Shown one piece after another: positions 3,683 to 40,496 of a DNA stretch of 50,441 bases (position 1 is the first letter of the stretch; every line of letters starts with the position of its first letter). The notes below the pieces were generated by a model that saw only the letters and a program-made list of their open reading frames with translations, was not told where the DNA came from and did not search any database. The position numbers were made by a program, and so were the translations under genes. Source of the DNA: an uncultured Gammaproteobacteria bacterium (GTDB lineage: Bacteria; Pseudomonadota; Gammaproteobacteria; Pseudomonadales; Pseudohongiellaceae); NCBI GenBank assembly GCA_903862645.1, contig CAIOZF010000004.1, positions 1-50,441 on the forward strand, written 5' to 3'.

Positions 3683-5035
3683 ATGGCGTTGGTCCTGCTT
3701 GGCATAAATCACAATACCGCGAACGTCGATTTTCGCGAGCAGGTCGCCTTTCCGCCCGAGAAGGTCGGGGATGCGATCAGGCGTGCCAGCGAATTGGAGG
3801 GCGTCGAAGAACTGGTGATTGTCTCGACCTGCAACCGCACCGAACTCTATGTGCAGATCGACCTTGGCGAGACCTCGGCCGTTGACCCCGATGTTTACAT
3901 CGATCCGGAATTGATGCGCGAACATGAGTGCCGTTTGATCACATGGCTGAGTCAGTTCCATGGACTGCAGGAAGATGAGGTTCGCCGTTCCTCCTATTTC
4001 CGTTGGCGCGACGATGTCATCCGTCACCTGATGAGGGTGTCCTGTGGACTGGACTCAATGGTTTTGGGTGAGCCGCAAATACTCGGGCAGATCAAGTCAG
4101 CCTATGCCGTTTCCAAGGACATGGGTGTCATCGGCGGCAATCTCGGGCGCGCCTTCCAGGAAGCCTTTTCAATCGCCAAGCAGGTCCGCACCGACACCGC
4201 TATCGGCGAGAGCCCCGTCTCAGTAGCATATGCCGCAGTAACGTTGGCGGAACAAATCTTCTCCGATCTGTCCAGCCTCAACGCACTGCTGATTGGGGCG
4301 GGACGCACAATAGAGCTGGTGGCCAGGCATCTAACCGAAAAGGGCGTGCGCAATATAGTAGTGGCCAACCGCACCCTGCAGAATGCAGTAGAACTGGGGG
4401 CAAAATTCGGTGCCGAGGGCGTGCTGCTCTCCGATATTCCCGAACAGTTGGTGAAGGCCGACATTGTGGTTTCCTCTACCAACAGCCAGTTGCCATTGCT
4501 GGGGAAGGGCGCAGTGGAGAGTGCCATCAAGCGGCGCCGTCACAAACCGATCCTGCTGGTGGATCTGGCGGTGCCCCGGGACATTGAGCCCCAGGTTGGC
4601 GAGATTGCTGATGCTTATCTCTACAGCATCGACGACATTCGTGACGTAATTGAAGACAGCGTCAAGAGCCGGACGGAGGCTGCAGCGCAGGCCAGTTCGA
4701 TCATCGAGAGAGGGGTGCAGGATTACATTCGCCAGCTGCGTTCGCTCAACGCCGTCAATACGTTGCGAGCCTTCCGTGACAAGGCCGAACAGATTCGCAG
4801 TCGTGAGACTGAAAAGGCGCTGAGGGCGCTGGAACGAGGCGAACCCGCAGCTCAGGTGCTGGAGTCATTGGCCCGAGGTCTCACCAATAAACTGATTCAT
4901 TCTCCCAGCGTGCAAATGAAGAAGGCCAGTGCCGACGGCCGCGACGAGGTCGTGCAGCTGACGCGCGAACTGTTCGAACTGGATGAACCGCTGACATTAT
5001 CGCCCCCCCCCCCTGCAGACTCTGAAAACCCATGA
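3683..5035 (+). CDS. hemA: Glutamyl-tRNA reductase
   Basis: HemA reduces glutamate on tRNA-Glu to glutamate-1-semialdehyde with NADPH, the first committed step of C5-pathway tetrapyrrole synthesis. The 450-residue protein starts [13 protein letters not shown]. It carries the catalytic motif [10 protein letters not shown] with Cys50, the [15 protein letters not shown] block, a Rossmann segment ([17 protein letters not shown]) and the C-terminal dimerisation helix. The last residues include a proline run encoded by eleven consecutive C (5003-5013). Its TGA overlaps the prfA start (ATGA at 5032-5035), so the two are translationally coupled. hemA-prfA-prmC is the usual gammaproteobacterial order. 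Confidence 0.98.
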
Positions 5036-6117
5036 AAGAATCGATATTCAATAAACTGGAAAACCTCAAGGATCGCTATCAGGAGCTGGAGGCGCTGCTG
5101 AGCGATTCCGAGGTCCTCTCCAATCAAGAGCGTTTCCGCAACCTCTCCAAAGAGTTCGCAGAGATCGAGCCCGTGGTAAAGGCCTTCACGCAGTTCCAGG
5201 ACGTACAGGATCAGCTGCGCCAGGCCCGTGAGATGCAGAAAGACGCCGACAGCGATATTCGCGCTATGGCTGACGACGAGGTCAAGAGCATCGAGGCCGG
5301 GCTGGACGAACAGGAACTTGAACTGCAGAAACTCCTCTTGCCCAGGGACGAGAAAGACAGCTGCAACATCTTTCTGGAGGTACGTGCTGGCACTGGCGGC
5401 GATGAGGCGGCAATCTTCTCCGGCGATCTGTTCCGCATGTATTCGCGTTACGCGGAAGTGCAGGGTTGGCGTCTGGAAATTCTCAGCGAACGTCCCGGCG
5501 AGCACGGGGGTTACAAGGAAATTATCACCCGCATCGAGGGTCGCAATGTCTATGGCCATCTGAAGTTCGAGTCCGGCGCCCACCGCGTGCAGCGTGTGCC
5601 GGAAACCGAGACTCAGGGGCGCATCCACACCTCCGCATGCACAGTAGCCGTCATGCCGGCCATGGACGAACTTGCCGAGATAGAGATCAACAAGGCCGAC
5701 CTGCGCGTCGATACCTATCGTTCCAGCGGTGCTGGGGGGCAGCACGTGAACAAAACCGATTCGGCAATCCGGCTCACCCATATCCCGACGGGGATCGTGG
5801 TGGAGTGTCAGGACGAACGCTCGCAGCACAAGAACCGCGCCCGGGCGATGTCGCTGCTGCATGCCAAAATCAACGATCAGGCCCAGCAGGCGGCGGCGAA
5901 AGAAGTCTCTGATACACGCCGGCAGCTAGTCGGCACGGGGGATCGCTCCGAACGAATCCGCACCTACAATTATCCGCAGGGACGGGTCACCGATCACCGT
6001 ATCAATCTCACCGTCTACAAACTGGGTGAGGTCATGGAAGGTGCTCTGGATTCGGTGATCCAGCCGCTCGTCAACGAGCATCAGGCCGACCTGCTCTCCG
6101 AGCTGGCGGATTCCTGA
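5032..6117 (+). CDS. prfA: Peptide chain release factor 1
   Basis: RF1 recognises UAA and UAG and triggers peptidyl-tRNA hydrolysis on the ribosome. The 361-residue product has the codon-recognition segment [13 protein letters not shown], in which the PxT tripeptide reads PET. It also has the catalytic [13 protein letters not shown], with GGQ at residues 235-237, whose Gln is the methylation target of the next gene product. Length is standard. The start codon overlaps the hemA stop, and prmC follows after about 30 bp, making a three-gene operon. Confidence 0.98.
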
Positions 6118-30601: not shown

Positions 30602-32602
30602 ATGCTCAGTCTCTGGAATGACCAGGAGGCAGCCGGTTTTGCCAAAGACCCGCAACTGGGTCTGCGCGTCTACAGTTCCCGGTTACTGGGGCAGAGTGCC
30701 GATCTGGTGTTGCATGGTGGCGGCAACACCTCGGTCAAGAGTAGCGTGGCCAATGTTTTTGGCGACACCGAGACTGTTCTCTTCGTCAAAGGCTCGGGTT
30801 GGGACTTGCAGACTATAGCCGCAGGAGGCTTCGCGCCGGTGCGGCTTGACTACCTGTTGCGCCTGGTGGATCTGTCGTCGCTCACCGATACCGAGATGAT
30901 GCGTGAGCTGCGTCTTGCGCTCCTCGATCCCGCTGCACCTACTCCATCTGTCGAAGCCATCCTGCATGCGTTGATACCCACACGCTATGTCGACCACACT
31001 CACGCCGATGCGGTGGTGGCGATCAGCAATACCCCCAAAGGCGCGGCGGCACTGCGCCAGATCTATGGCGACGATGTGCTCATCCTGCCTTACGTCATGC
31101 CCGGCTTCATTCTGGCGCGGCAGGTCTTTGAGGCGACCCGCAACGTGGACTGGAAGAGACTCAAGGGAATCATCCTGCTGCACCACGGCGTCATCACCTT
31201 CGATGACGATTGTCGTGCCAGCTATGAGCGCATGATCGAGCTGGTCAGCATGGCCGAAGGTTATCTTGAGCAGCGCGGCGCGCTGACGGGATCGGTGCGG
31301 GAGCAGACTCAGGGTCACGCTCACATACCGGCCAGAGCCATCGATTTCACGCAGATTGCAGGAGTGCGCAGAGTGGCCAGCGAGATGATGGGTTCACCCC
31401 TACTGGTACGCTGGGATCAATCCGCAGAGGCAGTGGCATATGCGTCATTGCCGGATATTGCCACTCTTGCCATGCGCGGCCCGCTCACGCCGGACCACAG
31501 CATTCACACGAAAGTCTTCGCGGCCATCTATGACGAGAATCCCGTGCCGGGACTCCAACAGTTCAGGAGCGATTACCAGGCCTACTTCCGGCGTCACTCC
31601 TCCGCTCACCATACCTGTCTCGACACGGTGCCCCGTTTCGGGGTCTGGCAAGGGAAGGGCATGCTGTATATCGCGCAGGACGTCAAACGTCTGGGGGTCG
31701 TCGCCGATATCTCTGCGCATACCATGAAAGCCATTCAATGGGGCGAGGTATTAGGCGGCTGGACGGCGCTGCCGCATCAGGATCTGTTTGACATCGAATA
31801 CTGGGAGCTGGAGCAGGCCAAGCTCAAACGCGGTCAGGCACGAGGGGAATTCGAGGGGCGCGTGGTCGTAGTGACCGGCGCTGTGTCGGGCATCGGCCAG
31901 GCCTGTGTCGAGGCATTCCTCGCCAAGGGGGCGGCCGTGGTCGCGCTGGACATCAATCCGCAGATCACCAGTGCCTGGAAATCCGCTCAGGTGTTGGGGC
32001 TGGTCTGCGACGTGACCGACGCCCAACAGATCACCGAAGTCTTGCAGCAAGCCATTGCCGCTTTCGGTGGCATCGATGTGCTTGTGAGCAACGCCGGGAA
32101 TTTCCCCCCGAGTCGGCCTTTGCAGGGCATGGATGACCAGACCTGGGAGCAGTCGATGAACTTGAACCTCGGCTCGCACATGAAGATGCTGCGCGCCTGC
32201 ATCCCATTTCTGGAGCAGGGGCTGGACGCATCGGTGGTGTTCATTGGTTCCAAGAACGTGCCAGCGCCGGGGCCGGGTGCCGGGGCCTACTCAGTAGCCA
32301 AGGCCGGGCTCGCACAACTGGCCCGGGTGGCGGCGCTGGAGCTGGGGAGCAAGGGTATTCGCGTCAATACCATCCACCCGAACGCGGTCTTCGACACCGG
32401 ACTCTGGACTGACGAGGTGCTGGCGCAGCGTGCCAGCAGCTATAAGCTCAGCGTCGACGAATATAAGAAGAACAATGTCCTGGGCCGCAGTGTCGGTTCC
32501 AAGGATGTCGCCCGGCTGGCGGTACTGATGGCAGGGGAAGGCTTCGCCTGTACCACCGGGGCACAGGTGCCGGTCGACGGCGGCAACGACAGGGTGATCT
32601 GA
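30602..32602 (+). CDS. Class II aldolase / short-chain dehydrogenase fusion
   Basis: The 666-residue protein has two enzymes. Residues 1 to about 400 are a class II (zinc) sugar-phosphate aldolase, with LVLHGGGNTSVKS, the metal histidines in DHTHADAV (about residue 132) and HHGVITFDDD (about 194). From about residue 420 comes an SDR domain, with NAD loop VVVTGAVSGIGQA, the SNAGN motif and active-site YSVAK near residue 562. The layout matches RhaEW/YuxG, which cleaves rhamnulose-1-phosphate and oxidises lactaldehyde. No rhamnose gene is nearby. Overlap with an MtnA-type isomerase gene (shared A in TGATG) instead suggests 5-methylthioribulose- or 5-deoxyribulose-1-phosphate as substrate, giving DHAP and an aldehyde for the SDR domain. 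GAGG lies 8 nt before ATG. Confidence 0.9.
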   Translation: MLSLWNDQEAAGFAKDPQLGLRVYSSRLLGQSADLVLHGGGNTSVKSSVANVFGDTETVLFVKGSGWDLQTIAAGGFAPVRLDYLLRLVDLSSLTDTEMMRELRLALLDPAAPTPSVEAILHALIPTRYVDHTHADAVVAISNTPKGAAALRQIYGDDVLILPYVMPGFILARQVFEATRNVDWKRLKGIILLHHGVITFDDDCRASYERMIELVSMAEGYLEQRGALTGSVREQTQGHAHIPARAIDFTQIAGVRRVASEMMGSPLLVRWDQSAEAVAYASLPDIATLAMRGPLTPDHSIHTKVFAAIYDENPVPGLQQFRSDYQAYFRRHSSAHHTCLDTVPRFGVWQGKGMLYIAQDVKRLGVVADISAHTMKAIQWGEVLGGWTALPHQDLFDIEYWELEQAKLKRGQARGEFEGRVVVVTGAVSGIGQACVEAFLAKGAAVVALDINPQITSAWKSAQVLGLVCDVTDAQQITEVLQQAIAAFGGIDVLVSNAGNFPPSRPLQGMDDQTWEQSMNLNLGSHMKMLRACIPFLEQGLDASVVFIGSKNVPAPGPGAGAYSVAKAGLAQLARVAALELGSKGIRVNTIHPNAVFDTGLWTDEVLAQRASSYKLSVDEYKKNNVLGRSVGSKDVARLAVLMAGEGFACTTGAQVPVDGGNDRVI

Positions 32603-33761: not shown

Positions 33762-34109
33762 TTACCCTGGCGGCCAGCTCAGGTGCCGCCCGGCCAGAAT
33801 GTGCAGATGGATGTGATGAACCGTCTGTCCGCCATCGACGCCGGTGTTGAAGACGCAGCGAAAACCATCCTCCGCAATCCCTTCCTGTTCGGCAATCTTG
33901 CGTGCTCGCAGCATCAGCCTGCCCATCAACGCGCTGTCGTCTTCTTCCAGAGTGGCTACGCTCAGGATGTGTTTGCGCGGGATCAACAGGATGTGTTGCG
34001 GGGCGCCTGGGTTGATGTCGCGGAAGGCGTAAAGCTCGTCGTCGCTATAGACGCGCGTTGAGGGTATCTCGCCAGCGGCGATCTTGCAGAACAGACAGTG
34101 GCTTGCCAT
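33762..34109 (-). CDS. hinT: HIT-family nucleotide-binding hydrolase (HinT-like)
   Basis: The 115-residue protein is a histidine-triad purine nucleoside phosphoramidase type. It starts CLFCKIAAGEIPSTRVYSDD and has the central HILLIPRKHI-type segment. The triad HHIHLHILAG lies near the C terminus, with histidines alternating with hydrophobic residues. Length equals the family norm. CLFC plus a later His may bind zinc. It converges on mtnA, separated by REP locus 2. HinT proteins hydrolyse AMP-lysine-like adducts; no link to the neighbours is implied. Confidence 0.93.
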   Translation of the reverse strand: MASHCLFCKIAAGEIPSTRVYSDDELYAFRDINPGAPQHILLIPRKHILSVATLEEDDSALMGRLMLRARKIAEQEGIAEDGFRCVFNTGVDGGQTVHHIHLHILAGRHLSWPPG

Positions 34110-34231: not shown

Positions 34232-35299
34232 ATGCCGGTATTTTCGCGACTCGCTTCAGTCAAAAGCAGCAGACTTGCTGCCTGGCTGCTTTGCACTATC
34301 TCCGCGTTGTTCTCCGCCGCTTTGTACGCCCAGAACGTCGCCGACAATCCCTATCACGCCCAGTACGACTGGGTGAAGATGCCCGAGGGGCAAAAGATCG
34401 GCGTGCCCAGTGGCGTCTTTCCCGATCCGGATCGCCAGCACATCTGGGTGCTGTCGCGCTGCGGCGAGAACCACTGCGCCCTGCATCCTGAAGTGGACCC
34501 TATCCTGAAATTCGATCTCGACGGCAATGTCGTCGACAGTTTCGGCGCGGGGCTGTTCTCCTGGCCGCATGGGTTCTTCCTCGATCATGAGGGTTTCCTG
34601 TGGGTGACCGAAGGTGCGCCAGTGGGTGACGAGCGTCTGGTGGAGGGAACCAAACGCGGTCTCGGACATCAGGTCTTCAAACTGAATAAAGCCGGAGAGG
34701 TCTTGATGGCCTTGGGTGAGGCAGGTGTGGCAGGAGCCGATGAGAGCCACTTCAACGGCCCTGCCGATGTCGTGGTGGCGCCGAACGGTGACATCTGGAT
34801 TGCCGACGGCCATCGCGGCGGCAACAACCGCGTCGTCAAGTTCGCGCCTGACGGCACCTTTCTGCTGCAAATAGGTGGTGGACCGGAGTCCCGCAGTGGC
34901 GATCCTGGCCGCTTCAACGACCCCCACGGCATTACCATCGACAAGCAAGGCCGCATCATCGTCGCGGATCGCGGCAACAACCGGACGCAGATCTTCGACC
35001 AGGAGGGCAAGCTGCTGAAAGTCTGGACTCAGCTCGGCCGTCCGAGCACTGTGTTCGTGGATCACAACGACATTCTCTATGCCGGCGACGGCATGTCCGA
35101 CGAGAACTGGAACCCCGGCTGGGAGCGCGGCATCCGCATCACACCGGCCTCCTCCGGCTGGGTGACGGCCTTCATCCCCGACCGCGAAGTGGCAGTAGGC
35201 ACCGGCGTGGAATTCCTTGGTGTGGATCTGGAGGGCAACATATACTCTGGCGAAGTCGGACGTGAGCGTCTGGTCAAATATATCCGCGTCAGGCCATGA
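34232..35299 (+). CDS. Exported NHL-propeller protein, peptide alpha-amidating-lyase-like
   Basis: The 355-residue product has a signal peptide, probably cleaved near ALYA-QN at about residue 33. A six-bladed NHL-type propeller follows. Blades carry WPHGFFLDHEGFLWVTE (His113), HFNGPADVVVAPNGDIWIAD, DPHGITIDKQGRIIVADRGN (His232, Arg247) and GHQVFKL. These match, as I remember them, the zinc-binding and catalytic blades of peptidyl-alpha-hydroxyglycine alpha-amidating lyase. The catalytic Tyr position is His194 here, and the third zinc His appears missing. Activity is therefore uncertain; a plain NHL scaffold is possible. AGGAG lies 6-7 nt before ATG. The stop overlaps the glutaminyl cyclase gene (ATGA). 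Confidence 0.82.
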   Translation: MPVFSRLASVKSSRLAAWLLCTISALFSAALYAQNVADNPYHAQYDWVKMPEGQKIGVPSGVFPDPDRQHIWVLSRCGENHCALHPEVDPILKFDLDGNVVDSFGAGLFSWPHGFFLDHEGFLWVTEGAPVGDERLVEGTKRGLGHQVFKLNKAGEVLMALGEAGVAGADESHFNGPADVVVAPNGDIWIADGHRGGNNRVVKFAPDGTFLLQIGGGPESRSGDPGRFNDPHGITIDKQGRIIVADRGNNRTQIFDQEGKLLKVWTQLGRPSTVFVDHNDILYAGDGMSDENWNPGWERGIRITPASSGWVTAFIPDREVAVGTGVEFLGVDLEGNIYSGEVGRERLVKYIRVRP

Positions 35300-36120
35300 A
35301 AGCAGGTGTTATGAATCTCTTGAGAACGACAATTTCCGCAGCGCTGCTGTTGCTGTTTACCTGCCAGGCGCAGGCCCAGGTTCCGGTCTACGGCTACAAG
35401 GTCATCAAGTCCTATCCGCACAACATCAGCTCCTTCACCCAGGGGCTGCAGATTCACGACGGTTACCTCTACGAGGGCACCGGGCTGGAAGGGCGTTCCT
35501 CGCTCAGCCAGATCAATCTCGAAGACGGCAAGGTGCTCAAGAGCAAGCGTCTCGCCCAGCAGTATTTCGGCGAGGGCATCAGCATCGTCGGCGATAAGAT
35601 ATTTCAGCTCACCTGGCAATCCAACCTCGTCTTTGTCTACGATCTGGCGACATTCAATTCGGTGACTTCCCACTACCATCCGACCGAGGGCTGGGGCCTG
35701 ACCTATGACGGCAGCCAGCTGATTCTCAGTGATGGCAGTGCGTCGCTGCAGTTCATCGACCCGGAGACTTTTCAAGTTGCGCGCAAGGTGGAGGTGCGCC
35801 TTGAAGGACAGCCGGTCAACTCGCTGAACGAACTCGAATACATCAACGGCGAGGTATGGGCCAACGTCTGGCAGACCAATGAGATCGTGCGCATCGATCC
35901 ACAGAGCGGCGCGGTGACCGGCATCGTGGATCTGGCCGGTCTGGTCGGGCAGACGCGCACCGGCGGCGATGGCGCGGTGCTCAATGGCATCGCTTGGGTG
36001 CCCAATGTAGAGTCCACTGCAACACCAGGCTCCTCTGTAACACCAGGCTCCGGGCGTCTCTTCGTCACTGGCAAACTGTGGGGCAATCTGTTCGAGATCG
36101 AACTGGTGCCTCGCCAGTGA
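35296..36120 (+). CDS. Plant-type glutaminyl-peptide cyclotransferase
   Basis: This enzyme cyclises N-terminal glutamine of peptides to pyroglutamate, releasing ammonia. The protein has a signal peptide (LLRTTISAALLLLFTCQAQA) and a five-bladed propeller of the papaya type (PF05096). Typical motifs are SFTQGLQIHDGYLYEGTG, FGEGISIVGDKIFQLTWQ, EGWGLTYDGSQLILSDGSA, LNELEYINGEVWANVWQTN and LFVTGKLWGNLFEIELV. The frame starts at ATG 35296, overlapping the preceding stop. ATG 35311 has a better-placed AGG and leaves a normal signal, so it may be the true start. Predicted location is the periplasm. Confidence 0.92.
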   Translation: MKAGVMNLLRTTISAALLLLFTCQAQAQVPVYGYKVIKSYPHNISSFTQGLQIHDGYLYEGTGLEGRSSLSQINLEDGKVLKSKRLAQQYFGEGISIVGDKIFQLTWQSNLVFVYDLATFNSVTSHYHPTEGWGLTYDGSQLILSDGSASLQFIDPETFQVARKVEVRLEGQPVNSLNELEYINGEVWANVWQTNEIVRIDPQSGAVTGIVDLAGLVGQTRTGGDGAVLNGIAWVPNVESTATPGSSVTPGSGRLFVTGKLWGNLFEIELVPRQ

Positions 36121-36136
36121 TACGGCAGGAGTGTGA

Positions 36137-37192
36137 ATGCGATTCCTGCGCCGACCACTTCTGACTCTTGGTTTTTCCTTTCTGGTGCTGGGCCTGATCA
36201 GCGGCTGCGAGAGCGTCGCTTACTACGGACAGGCGGCGCAGGGCCAGATGTCACTGCTGCTGGGCCGTGAAGCCATTGCCGAGCGACTGACACAATCGAC
36301 CCTGCCAGACGCCGAGCGGCGCAAGCTGCAACTGGTGCTCGACGCGCGCGCCTTCGCTGAACAAACCCTCTTGCTGGACGCCGGTGACAGCTATCTCTCC
36401 TACGTCGAACTCGACCGCAATTTCGTGTTGTGGAACGTGTTCGCCGCCCCCGAATTTTCCACGACACCGGTGAGCTGGTGTTACCCCATCGCGGGGTGCG
36501 TTGCTTATCGAGGCTACTTTGCCGAAGCCTCGGCCCAGCGCGCTGCCGACCGTCTCGTCGCCGAAGGGTTCGATGTCTACAGCGGCGGCGTGGATGCCTA
36601 CTCGACTCTGGGCTGGTTCGCCGATCCGCTCACCAGTATTGTGCTGCGCCGTTCGGAGCAGGGGCTGGTGGCGCTGCTGTTTCATGAACTCGCGCATCGA
36701 CGGGTTTACCTGCCGGGCGACACCACCTTCAACGAAAGCTTTGCGACCTTTGTCGAGCAGGAGGGGCTGCGGCGCTGGCTGCTGGCCAATCCGCAGCAGG
36801 GAGTTGTGCAGCAGAGGGTGGATGAGGACTCGATACAGGCAGAGTTTGTGGCGCTGGTGACCGGTTATCGTGACCGGCTGACTGCGCTTTATGCTGAGCC
36901 GCTGGAGCCGTCGCAGATGCGGGAACGTAAGGATGCGATCCGGCAGGAGTTGCGGGATGAATATGCCGTGCTGCGCGAGCAGTGGGGCTATACAGGCTAT
37001 GACCGCTGGTTCGCGGGACCGCTCAACAATGCCCAGCTTTCTACCGTGGCGTCCTACAACGATCTGGTGCCGACGTTTGCGGCGTTGTTGGAGGAGGTCG
37101 AAGGAGATCTTCAGCGTTTTTATGAGCGGGTCACCGAGCTTGCGGCGCTGCCAGAGCAAGAGCGGCGACAGCTGTTAGAGCGGCCCTGGTAA
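36137..37192 (+). CDS. Predicted lipoprotein aminopeptidase (PF10023 type)
   Basis: The 351-residue protein has a lipoprotein signal, GLISGC at about residues 19-24. A gluzincin-like catalytic segment reads LLFHELAHRRVYLPGD, with His183, Glu184 and His187. Downstream, TFNESFATFVEQEGLRRW supplies the next glutamate ligand. These features match the putative aminopeptidase family COG4324 as I remember it. It starts 16 nt after the glutaminyl cyclase stop, so three exported peptide-related proteins are probably co-transcribed. Substrates are unknown. Confidence 0.88.
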   Translation: MRFLRRPLLTLGFSFLVLGLISGCESVAYYGQAAQGQMSLLLGREAIAERLTQSTLPDAERRKLQLVLDARAFAEQTLLLDAGDSYLSYVELDRNFVLWNVFAAPEFSTTPVSWCYPIAGCVAYRGYFAEASAQRAADRLVAEGFDVYSGGVDAYSTLGWFADPLTSIVLRRSEQGLVALLFHELAHRRVYLPGDTTFNESFATFVEQEGLRRWLLANPQQGVVQQRVDEDSIQAEFVALVTGYRDRLTALYAEPLEPSQMRERKDAIRQELRDEYAVLREQWGYTGYDRWFAGPLNNAQLSTVASYNDLVPTFAALLEEVEGDLQRFYERVTELAALPEQERRQLLERPW

Positions 37193-37309: not shown

Positions 37310-38062
37310 TTAGCGAGCCAGTTGAGCCTCAAGTCCGGTAATGAGGTCCTTGTAGAACTGGGAGGCGGGGTCGATGGCGGCCGCCGCGCGATACTGGGTC
37401 AGGGCTTCCTCCAGGCGCTGTTCTGATTCCAGCATGCGCCCCAGAGTTCGGTGCACGAAGGGATCGGGCGGGGCCACGGTCAGTGCCTTCTCGTACACAC
37501 GAATGGCCTCAGCCATGCGACCGGCGTTGGCGTAGGTATTGCCCATCACATAGATCTGTGACGTGTTCCCCGCGTCATTTTCGATGGCGCGCAGGTCGAC
37601 TTCGATGGCTTCATCGTAGCGCTGGGCATCACGCAACAACTGCCCCAGCGTGTTCAACGAGGCGATCAAACCCGCCGTCACCTCTTTCTGCAAATCGATG
37701 AAACGCGCCAGCATAGGGATGGCGTCGTCGAAGCGTTTCTGAAAATAGAAGATGTTGGCCAGCTGGCGGTAGGTGTCGGCGAAGTTCGGGTCGGCAGTAA
37801 TGGAGAGCTGGTACTCGGCGATGGCCTCGTCGAAGCGCTCCAGATTGTTGTAAGTATTACCGCGTCGGTAGTGTGTTTGACCCAATTCGGGATCGATGAC
37901 GGCGCTGCTGCGTTCGACATTGAGATTGCCATAGCGGCTGATGCTGTCTGCTACGCTGGAGCCCGTGTCTTGCGCAAGTGCAGCGTCCGGGCTCCCGATG
38001 ATCGTCCCGACTACAAGTGTCAGGCACGCAATCGTTCTGTTAAGTATCAGCCTTAATTTCAT
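37310..38062 (-). CDS. Exported TPR-repeat protein
   Basis: The 250-residue protein has a signal peptide (LNRTIACLTLVVGTIIGSPDAALAQ, shown in parts: hydrophobic core CLTLVVGTIIG, cleavage near ALAQ). About five TPR units follow, for example HYRRGNTYNNLERFDEAIAE and ADTYRQLANIFYFQKRFDDA. It probably works as a periplasmic adaptor; no partner is indicated. It lies downstream of the flavoprotein-SelD gene on the same strand, but a terminator-like hairpin separates them. Confidence 0.85.
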   Translation of the reverse strand: MKLRLILNRTIACLTLVVGTIIGSPDAALAQDTGSSVADSISRYGNLNVERSSAVIDPELGQTHYRRGNTYNNLERFDEAIAEYQLSITADPNFADTYRQLANIFYFQKRFDDAIPMLARFIDLQKEVTAGLIASLNTLGQLLRDAQRYDEAIEVDLRAIENDAGNTSQIYVMGNTYANAGRMAEAIRVYEKALTVAPPDPFVHRTLGRMLESEQRLEEALTQYRAAAAIDPASQFYKDLITGLEAQLAR

Positions 38063-38198: not shown

Positions 38199-40496
38199 CT
38201 AGTCAGTCAAGGTGACAGTTGCAGCCGTCGAGCTTGCGGTGCTGACCCTACCGATGGCGGCAGCGAGTCCATAACCGGCCGCGCGCAAGTGCGTCAGGCA
38301 GGCGCCGGCTTTTGCCGCCGGGATGCTGGCCAGCAGGCCTCCTGCGGTCTGCGGGTCGTACAGCAGCTGCAGCCGTGGCGCGGCCGCGAACCGCTTAGCA
38401 TCGATCAGCATATCGTCGTGCTGGGCATTGTCCGCATGCAGTGAACTCAGCAGACCGCGCTCGATACAGGTCAACGCACCATCCAGCACCGGCAATGCAG
38501 ACAAGGACAGCGACACGCGCGCGCCCTCTGGTTCAATCATTTCCCGCAGATGGCCAAGCACACCGAAGCCGGTGATATCAGTACAAGCCGTGGCGCCATG
38601 CTGGACCAGCGTCTGCGCCGCCAGGTGATTGGACTGCTGCATATGTTCAAGCGCATTGCTGATCCAACGCTGGCGCGCCTGCCAGCGCATGTCGGCCGCA
38701 AACAGCGTGCCGGTGCCCAGAGGTTTGCAGAGGATCAACACGTCGCCCTCGCGCATGCCGGTCTTGCGCAGCAGGCGGTCGGCTGGCGCGAAGCCGTTGA
38801 CGCTGAGGCCAAAGCTCAGCTCCTGCGCCTCGCTGGTGTGGCCGCCAATCAGCGCCGTGTCGTGAGCGTTCAGAACCTCGGTGCAGCCCGTCATGATCTC
38901 CAGCAGACGAGCCTGCATGAGATGCGGCGCCGCGTAGGGAATGCTGACGATGGCCAGCGCGGAATGCGCTGTCGCGCCCATGGCGTGGATGTCACTCAAA
39001 CAGTGGACGGTGGCGATGCGCGCGAACAGGTAAGGATCGTTGATGAAGGCCCGGAAGTGATCGACCGACTGCAGCAGAACACGGCTCTTGTCGATGCGGA
39101 TCATCGCGCAGTCCTCGGTGCTCAGATGCGTGGAAATGACATCCCCATGCGTACACGGATGCACCTGCTCCAGCACCTGTTGCAGCATCGTACTCCCAAC
39201 CTTCGCGCCACACCCTGCGCAGCGCATCCCCTTGTGGGAGCGGGCCTCGCCCGCGATATTTTTATCTTCCAGCGGGCCACGCAAATTTGTGTACTTCCCC
39301 ACAAACCTCCGATCAATCCAGTCCTTCCACACTCCCACCCAGCGCCCCTGCCACGACCACTGGCCACGGGACGCCATGGCAGCGCCGTCGCCGGTATTGA
39401 TCATCGCCATGGCGTCGCGCTGCGGTGTGTAAGCGCGCAATGATTGACCCAGGGCAAAGCGGCGCAGATTGGCGGCAAGTGGCATACCCTGGCGCACGGC
39501 GTAGACACCCGATCTGGGGCGTGGGAAGCCGTCAATGCTGGCGATGTCTCCGGCAGCATAAACCATTGGATGACTCACCGACTGCAGGTTCTGATTGACG
39601 CGGATGAAACCCTTGTCGTCGAGCGCGAGCCCGGTGTGCTGGAGCCATGCTGGAGCGCTGGCGCCGGTGGCGATCACGATGCTGTCGGCAGACAGGCGTC
39701 CGGACCGTTCGCTGCCCACCGCCAGCGAGGGGTCAGATGCCTCCCAAAGCACAGTATTGGTTTCGATGGCCTTGACGGAACATTGCAGTCGCACCTCGAT
39801 GCCTTTGCGTTGCAGTGTCTGCAGCGCCCGGGCCTGAGTGGCGTCATTGTGAGTTGTCAGCAGGGAAGCGCTGTTGCTCAGGAGCAGGATGCGCAGAAGC
39901 GTGCCTGAATCCTTTGCCGCTGTTGTCGCATTTTTTCGTGCATTGCTGAGCAGACGCGCCTGCATGGCGCAGGCCAGCTCCACACTTGCCGGGCCTCCGC
40001 CGATGATGGCGATGGTGTAGGGTTTCCCTTGCGCCAGAGCCTCCCCCGCCTGGTGCTGCATGTCATCCCAGCGTTGCAGAAATTCTGGAATGGGCTTTAC
40101 CGCAACGGCGAACTCCTGCGCGCCGGGTAATCCATGCAACGCCGGGCGCGATCCAATATTGATCGATAGCATGTCGAAGCCGAGTGCCGGCCGGCCGGGG
40201 CAATGAAGCTGGCGGGTCTGCAGATCGATATGCTCGACGCTAGTTTGAATCAGTCGCACTCCGGCCATCTGCGCCAGTGGGCGCAGATCAATGTAGAGCT
40301 GGTCCACGCCGCAGTGGCCGATGAGATAGGCTGGCAGAGCGCCGGAATAGGGCGTATCCACATCGCGGGTCACCAATGTCACTTCCAGACCAGGCACAGG
40401 GTTTTTTGCCAGGTGCATCAGCACGGCCAGATGGCTGTGGCCGCCGCCGAGCAGGACAAGACTCTTTAAAGAGGGGACATACGTGGATGGGTTCAT
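38199..40496 (-). CDS. selD: FAD-dependent oxidoreductase / selenide,water dikinase fusion
   Basis: The 765-residue protein joins two enzymes. The N-terminal 400 residues are an NDH-2-like flavoprotein, with FAD loop LVLLGGGHSHLAVLMHLA, IAIIGGGPASVELACAM and VYAAGDIASIDG. From about residue 424 comes SelD, which makes selenophosphate from selenide and ATP. The catalytic loop reads CAGCGAK with Cys429 and Lys432, equivalent to E. coli Cys17 and Lys20. VLQSVDHFRAFINDPYLFAR, ALIGGHTSEA and LLYDPQTAGGLLASIP follow. Such fusions are known; the flavoprotein may supply reduced selenium. Selenophosphate users (SelU/MnmH or SelA) are not in the window. A REP sequence at 39233-39256 encodes part of the joint. 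Confidence 0.93.
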   Translation of the reverse strand: MNPSTYVPSLKSLVLLGGGHSHLAVLMHLAKNPVPGLEVTLVTRDVDTPYSGALPAYLIGHCGVDQLYIDLRPLAQMAGVRLIQTSVEHIDLQTRQLHCPGRPALGFDMLSINIGSRPALHGLPGAQEFAVAVKPIPEFLQRWDDMQHQAGEALAQGKPYTIAIIGGGPASVELACAMQARLLSNARKNATTAAKDSGTLLRILLLSNSASLLTTHNDATQARALQTLQRKGIEVRLQCSVKAIETNTVLWEASDPSLAVGSERSGRLSADSIVIATGASAPAWLQHTGLALDDKGFIRVNQNLQSVSHPMVYAAGDIASIDGFPRPRSGVYAVRQGMPLAANLRRFALGQSLRAYTPQRDAMAMINTGDGAAMASRGQWSWQGRWVGVWKDWIDRRFVGKYTNLRGPLEDKNIAGEARSHKGMRCAGCGAKVGSTMLQQVLEQVHPCTHGDVISTHLSTEDCAMIRIDKSRVLLQSVDHFRAFINDPYLFARIATVHCLSDIHAMGATAHSALAIVSIPYAAPHLMQARLLEIMTGCTEVLNAHDTALIGGHTSEAQELSFGLSVNGFAPADRLLRKTGMREGDVLILCKPLGTGTLFAADMRWQARQRWISNALEHMQQSNHLAAQTLVQHGATACTDITGFGVLGHLREMIEPEGARVSLSLSALPVLDGALTCIERGLLSSLHADNAQHDDMLIDAKRFAAAPRLQLLYDPQTAGGLLASIPAAKAGACLTHLRAAGYGLAAAIGRVSTASSTAATVTLTD
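39233..39256. repeat. Single REP, locus 4, inside selD
   Basis: TGTGGGAGCGGGC, CTC, GCCCGCGA: the same core as locus 2, with a perfect 6-bp inner hairpin. It is read in frame on the minus strand as about AGEARSH (residues 415-421), just before the SelD catalytic loop. No inverted partner was seen nearby. Confidence 0.8.

Follow-up and report, generated by a model that had tools for sequence, protein, structure and literature searches.

Side-by-side genes for a plant-type glutaminyl cyclase and a putative aminopeptidase in Pseudohongiellaceae, a family with an excess of predicted glutamine N-termini

The locus lies in a stretch of 50,441 nucleotides (the window; contig CAIOZF010000004.1 of assembly GCA_903862645.1) from an uncultured gammaproteobacterium of the Pseudohongiellaceae, referred to below as the host family. 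Three genes on the forward strand encode an NHL propeller protein (NHL), a glutaminyl cyclase (QC) and a putative aminopeptidase (AP), with the NHL gene placed between a HIT-domain gene and QC (Table 1). All three products carry predicted export signals, as the first-pass annotation of this DNA had proposed: the NHL protein would be cut at LYA|QNVAD (read by eye) and QC at AQA|QVPVY, and AP displays the lipobox LISG|C. Gln is located directly behind the predicted signal peptide in the NHL protein, in QC and in the neighbouring TPR protein (ALA|QDTG). The same annotation had QC overlapping the NHL gene through an ATGA. This overlap is specific to the window genome, as the upstream ATG is absent in all three relatives with an intact trio, each of which retains the ATG at 35311, the likely start of QC. 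Elsewhere in the window, positions 38199-40496 (reverse strand) hold a 765-residue open reading frame that looks, by eye, like an NADH-dehydrogenase-type oxidoreductase fused to selenide, water dikinase. A class II aldolase domain fused to a short-chain dehydrogenase (Pfam) is encoded at 30602-32602 (forward strand), directly followed by an IF-2B family gene that we take to be MtnA-like.

Table 1. Genes and start codons at the locus, in window coordinates.
Feature	Position	Strand	Description
HIT-domain gene	33762..34109	-	divergent neighbour, kept in many relatives
NHL gene	34232..35299	+	exported six-bladed NHL propeller with PAL fold, 355 aa
Upstream ATG	35296..35298	+	overlaps the NHL stop (ATGA); probably not the start used
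QC gene	35311..36120	+	plant-type glutaminyl cyclase, PF05096; start is the conserved ATG 35311
AP gene	36137..37192	+	PF10023 putative aminopeptidase; lipoprotein signal LISG|C; HELAH-x12-E
TPR gene	37310..38062	-	exported, convergent neighbour, kept in many relatives

QC scores 308 bits against PF05096 (cut-off 22.3), DUF6923 being its only other Pfam match, and belongs to the sequence family of the plant-type cyclases (E 6e-92). Its solved relatives are 3NOL, 3MBR, 2FAW and 3NOK, among which 2FAW is presumably the papaya enzyme and 3MBR that of Xanthomonas. Alignment with 2FAW revealed that the papaya catalytic residues Q24, E69, N155 and K225 are all kept; at the Q24 position 3NOL and 3MBR have Glu, in contrast to the Gln of the window enzyme. 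The four residues are listed in PMC5837995, which also describes plant-type QC as evolutionarily unrelated to animal QC. The PF05096 domain and the complete set of residues place the window enzyme in the plant type (type I). Neither its Pfam matches nor its four solved relatives, all glutamine cyclotransferases of the plant type, point to the zinc-dependent, aminopeptidase-like fold of the animal type (type II). Searches of 115 genomes with each of the three proteins (71 from the host family, the window genome included) located QC in 70 of the 71 host-family genomes, the QC matches in G004, G009 and G069 being partial; by the PF05096 domain, QC is present in 70 of the 71 and in 15 of the 44 others. 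Export signals, judged by eye, are present on 28 host-family QC N-termini, consistent with the extracytoplasmic cyclase of the Q-rule discussed below. The cyclase's own mature start is Gln in 16 of these 28 (by eye). Several relatives have a lipobox-like Cys; the window QC looks like a signal-peptidase-I export.

AP matches PF10023 with 396 bits (cut-off 25) and contains the HExxH...E motif of a zincin. The motif HExxH-x12-E recurs in 27 of 30 AP loci of relatives, the script giving no such reading frame in the other three. For the lipoprotein aminopeptidase gene of the first-pass annotation, the activity is predicted from the Pfam family name; a search for solved sequence relatives at E up to 1 returned none. 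In a survey table of PMC3650047, the fold match of the PF10023 aminopeptidase is leukotriene A4 hydrolase.

The two genes are closely linked. AP was found in 66 of the 71 host-family genomes, with four of the 70 QC carriers having no AP, and the order and strand of QC and AP are identical in all 66 genomes with both. In 65 of these the genes are within 630 nt of each other; in G010 the distance is 4.8 kb and the AP matches lie on two contigs. This linkage may be an inherited gene order, since HIT, MtnA, TPR and SelD genes are also syntenic with QC-AP in many relatives, and since a frame we assume to be YjbQ/UPF0047-like separates QC from AP in all five long gaps inspected (L110, L105, L106, L111 and L114). 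QC and AP would then be no more than syntenic members of an inherited HIT-QC-AP-TPR-SelD order, QC modifying exported proteins by itself and AP serving, for example, peptide scavenging or envelope maintenance. Consistent with this possibility, QC and AP are linked in none of the five genomes of other families that contain both. Against it, the pair is co-directional in 66/66 genomes despite the insertions, and capping and aminopeptidase action form two sides of a published model, as set out in PMC10653852. We regard simple synteny as a credible explanation, although one held at rather less than even odds.

The first-pass annotation had treated the three genes as a unit and named lack of conservation in relatives as grounds for abandoning that idea; the neighbourhood survey points in this direction. 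An NHL orthologue (E up to 1e-90) occurs in 17 of the 115 genomes and directly precedes QC in only four, the window genome (G000), G013, G010 and G005. A fifth, G011, retains a remnant at the same place that matches NHL residues 322-354 only. The trio was consequently rejected as a conserved operon. HIT and QC are direct neighbours in many other relatives; no HIT gene was within reach at four loci from the genus, L097 and L099-L101. In a tree of 65 rows, with long branches elsewhere in it, the window NHL clade joins four Acidobacteriota and three Gemmatimonadota rows with support 100/99, and ten other NHL rows of the host family form a separate clade, also at 100/99. L053 was left out of the alignment on account of a stop codon, and L019 was left out of the alignment (A2) and the tree on account of unknown residues in its translation. 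The latter, a Woeseiaceae record and hence a gammaproteobacterial carrier outside the tree, encodes an NHL protein with 69% identity. The rarity of the trio, the adjacency of HIT and QC in other relatives and the tree placement together indicate that the NHL gene is probably a late, lateral arrival at this locus, and its source lineage was probably close to the Acidobacteriota or Gemmatimonadota. The long branches of the tree and the L019 copy outside it are grounds for caution here.

The NHL protein does resemble peptide α-amidating lyase (PAL), as had been noticed earlier: in structural comparison its predicted model matches PAL best, with a six-bladed fold over 289 residues. H113 aligns with PAL His585 and H232 falls on His690 (by eye), both kept in 44/44 NHL-family sequences. 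At the position of His786 (by eye) the window protein has V326, and A, V, I, L or S occurs in 44/44, while His194, also His in 44/44, aligns with Tyr654. We take these four PAL residues to be three zinc ligands and the catalytic tyrosine; an open-paper search on the PAL zinc residues returned nothing. This agrees with the earlier reading of two retained zinc histidines, a His in place of the Tyr and no hydroxylating partner at the locus; the NHL gene is neither fused nor linked to a hydroxylase, in contrast to PAL. If the protein is an enzyme, it perhaps uses a rearranged site (H113, H194 and H232) in place of PAL's. The window genome contains 17 NHL matches, of which six others are 40-48% identical to the window protein; the nearest annotated plasmid relatives among the matches listed are only 27-32% identical. 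In the A2 alignment, 40 of 44 NHL-family sequences, drawn from several phyla, have Gln at window residue 34, where the mature protein is predicted to begin, and a search of five genomes of Alphaproteobacteria with Gln-start NHL proteins (G137-G141) gave no PF05096 cyclase.

An attempt to read NHL function from its neighbours elsewhere was rejected, as 20 neighbour proteins assigned by Pfam belong to mixed families. They include PQQ quinoprotein, PLD-like, DsbD, TonB plug, FAA hydrolase, aminotransferases, sulfate permease, DUF885, HupE/UreJ, glucose/sorbosone dehydrogenase, amidohydrolase, cupin and gamma-glutamyltranspeptidase, among others, and, of the 72 loci clustered, at most 13 share any one neighbour cluster. 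Eleven of 64 NHL loci (L015, L016, L019, L028, L036, L047, L048, L055, L056, L066 and L067) share one cluster; the member checked, from L015, proved to be a PQQ quinoprotein dehydrogenase.

These data bear on the proposal that the three genes form an operon for finishing peptide ends, with a PAL-like lyase, a cyclase and an aminopeptidase working at both termini of secreted peptides. The fold match to PAL is consistent with it, as are proteins with a copper type II monooxygenase C-terminal domain in 5/5 genus genomes searched, an HHM/HxH-motif protein near an NHL paralogue in the window genome and a copper protein close to a weak NHL match in another genome (L219; see below). The proposal is nevertheless very improbable given the restriction of the trio to four of 115 genomes, the separate ancestry of the NHL gene and the replacement of the PAL Tyr and the third zinc His (the latter position by eye). 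There was also no PF01082 match in five genomes, although the controls of that search likewise gave none. The analogy with animal peptide hormones drawn by the first-pass annotation fails on the same grounds: the trio is rare, QC is the unrelated plant-type enzyme, the NHL gene appears to have arrived separately and its neighbours elsewhere are mixed. What survives of the suggested capping or trimming of periplasmic peptide ends is its N-terminal half, QC and AP, as a possibility.

The N-termini available to such a pair were surveyed with a home-made predictor of signal-peptidase-I sites, all sites thus being predicted. Its first version judged a site by the residues that precede the cut and, beyond it, did no more than bar Pro at +1. 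Later versions also filter hydrophobicity after the cut, the strictest from +2 on, and so favour hydrophilic mature starts; predicted sites with a nearby Cys were dropped. Evenly spaced samples were taken from G041, G054, G075 and G098, a single contig each represented G100 and G093, and most stretches of the window genome were chosen because their contigs carry NHL copies. The controls comprised five 50-kb stretches of E. coli and three stretches of one Bacteroidota plasmid. With the first predictor, Gln occupied +1 in 75/269 sites of three host-family genomes versus 13/121 of two QC-less genomes of the order. The looser filtered predictor gave 70/183 and 9/69, respectively, against a background of 6-7% Gln at +2 to +15 in the host family; the corresponding counts were 3/37 for a pair of QC-positive genomes from other families, 11/16 for the Bacteroidota plasmid and 1/7 for one E. 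coli stretch. NHL-family members were removed from the strict counts (seven in G000, one in G054, eight alphaproteobacterial, five from Gemmatimonadota and three or four, by site rule, from Acidobacteriota), which then gave 40/90 in the host family versus 3/30 in the QC-less genomes, 1/13 in QC-positive genomes of other families, 4/5 in Bacteroidota and 1/16 in the five E. coli stretches. Choosing the last site gave 44/91 versus 4/30, and four further variants pointed in the same direction. Fisher tests of the strict counts against the QC-less genomes gave p = 7.5e-4 for the host family and p = 7.1e-4 for its two evenly sampled genomes only, both ignoring kinship, and members of the same family are not independent samples. 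In the three sampled host-family genomes, close to half of the exported proteins predicted with confidence seem to start with Gln. The two QC-positive genomes from other families show little excess, so that QC is by itself no predictor of the habit. The high Gln share first seen at alphaproteobacterial loci was rejected, since it fell to 0/5 once NHL-family members were removed and thus reflects how those loci were chosen.

Mature starts of two orthologues were read by eye in 30 genomes (15 host-family, 7 QC-positive others and 8 QC-less). In BamA the first mature residue is Gln in 15/15, 4/7 and 0/8 of these, respectively; in TolB it is Gln in 6/15, 4/6 readable (the unreadable G078 protein was dropped) and 2/8. 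Comparison of BamA with TolB and with the QC starts reported above indicates that the Gln habit differs between proteins, strong in some cases and weak in others. By these predicted starts, QC-positive families elsewhere share part of it.

The closest precedent is the Q-rule of Bacteroidetes. PMC5837995 and PMC10653852 report that most signal-peptidase-I substrates in that phylum have Gln after the signal peptide (mean 71%), that QC converts it to pyroglutamate, and that the tested proteins became less abundant when their Gln was replaced, presumably through the action of aminopeptidases. The host family seems similarly to combine a large predicted Gln share with an extracytoplasmic cyclase, although its share is 44-48% (strict) or 28-38% (looser) versus the published 71%. 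Most Bacteroidetes QCs are predicted lipoproteins, in contrast to the signal-peptidase-I appearance of the window enzyme. A further difference is that a metallopeptidase gene adjoins the host-family QC. The 2023 paper (PMC10653852) confines the Q-rule to Bacteroidetes, and the 2018 paper (PMC5837995) describes a continuum that extends to some other groups, a few cyanobacteria among them. There is a precedent for capping in Proteobacteria, since PMC3608174 records pyroglutamate on nine Gln-start periplasmic proteins of the alphaproteobacterium Novosphingobium. No published report of a Gln excess after signal peptides in Gammaproteobacteria was present among the literature matches listed. The novelty, if the data hold true, would be a family-wide Gln bias outside Bacteroidetes together with a peptidase neighbour.

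We propose, with a probability of about 0.5, that QC and AP work as a cap-or-trim pair whose targets are the N-termini of Sec-exported proteins cut by signal peptidase I. In the host family the share of exported proteins on which signal peptidase exposes Gln would lie between a large minority and about half, and the periplasmic plant-type QC would cyclise this Gln to pyroglutamate. The modified end would shield the protein from aminopeptidases, the neighbouring lipoprotein zincin AP being one of the enzymes guarded against, and AP would degrade ends left uncapped. The NHL propeller would be a later insertion and itself a Gln-start client. Among the elements of this reading, the gene families, the catalytic residues of QC, the conserved gene order, the Gln excess at predicted +1, the NHL tree placement and the PAL-like fold are directly supported. 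The activities of all the enzymes, the protection and the role of AP as the trimming counterpart we infer. A purely nutritional role, in which QC and AP break down imported peptides in the periplasm and pyroglutamate is incidental, is consistent with the predicted activity of AP and its published fold match, and with a DUF885 gene that follows QC in L010. This role leaves unexplained both the Gln excess at +1 and the near-universal occurrence of QC in the host family, and is unlikely. The cap-or-trim proposal may be extended to suggest that the host family evolved its own Q-rule, with Gln starting up to about half of its exports and the linked, membrane-anchored AP removing uncapped proteins, an extracytoplasmic N-end rule whose writer and reader are encoded side by side; at present this is speculative and on balance doubtful. 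The Gln excess is the part of the results most worth following: in combination with a near-universal QC in Proteobacteria it would offer an independent setting in which to ask why bacteria cap N-termini, and the linked peptidase gene would be an immediate candidate for the protease against which capping protects.

Some NHL matches lie close to genes with features of copper proteins. In the window genome, unlinked to the window, L344 (G000:C215:28400-30300, positions 1-1317) encodes a protein with a PF03712 copper type II monooxygenase C-terminal domain (31 bits, cut-off 23) and HHM and HMH motifs, which we take to be PHM/DBM-like. L345 encodes a relative that scores under the cut-off and is without several of these histidines. 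In L171 (G000:C235:1-6000, positions 788-2284 and 4154-5197) an FHHM/PHLH protein, 25% identical to the copper protein and with only a sub-threshold cytochrome c match in Pfam, is encoded about 2 kb from a convergent PAL-like NHL paralogue that holds an in-frame TAG, so that genes resembling a hydroxylase and a lyase are neighbours. A second NHL/copper pairing occurs in L219 (G054:C1:1900001-1920000, positions 965-1891 and 4346-5671), where a copper protein that shares 54% identity with the L344 protein is encoded about 2.5 kb away from a weak NHL match (24%).
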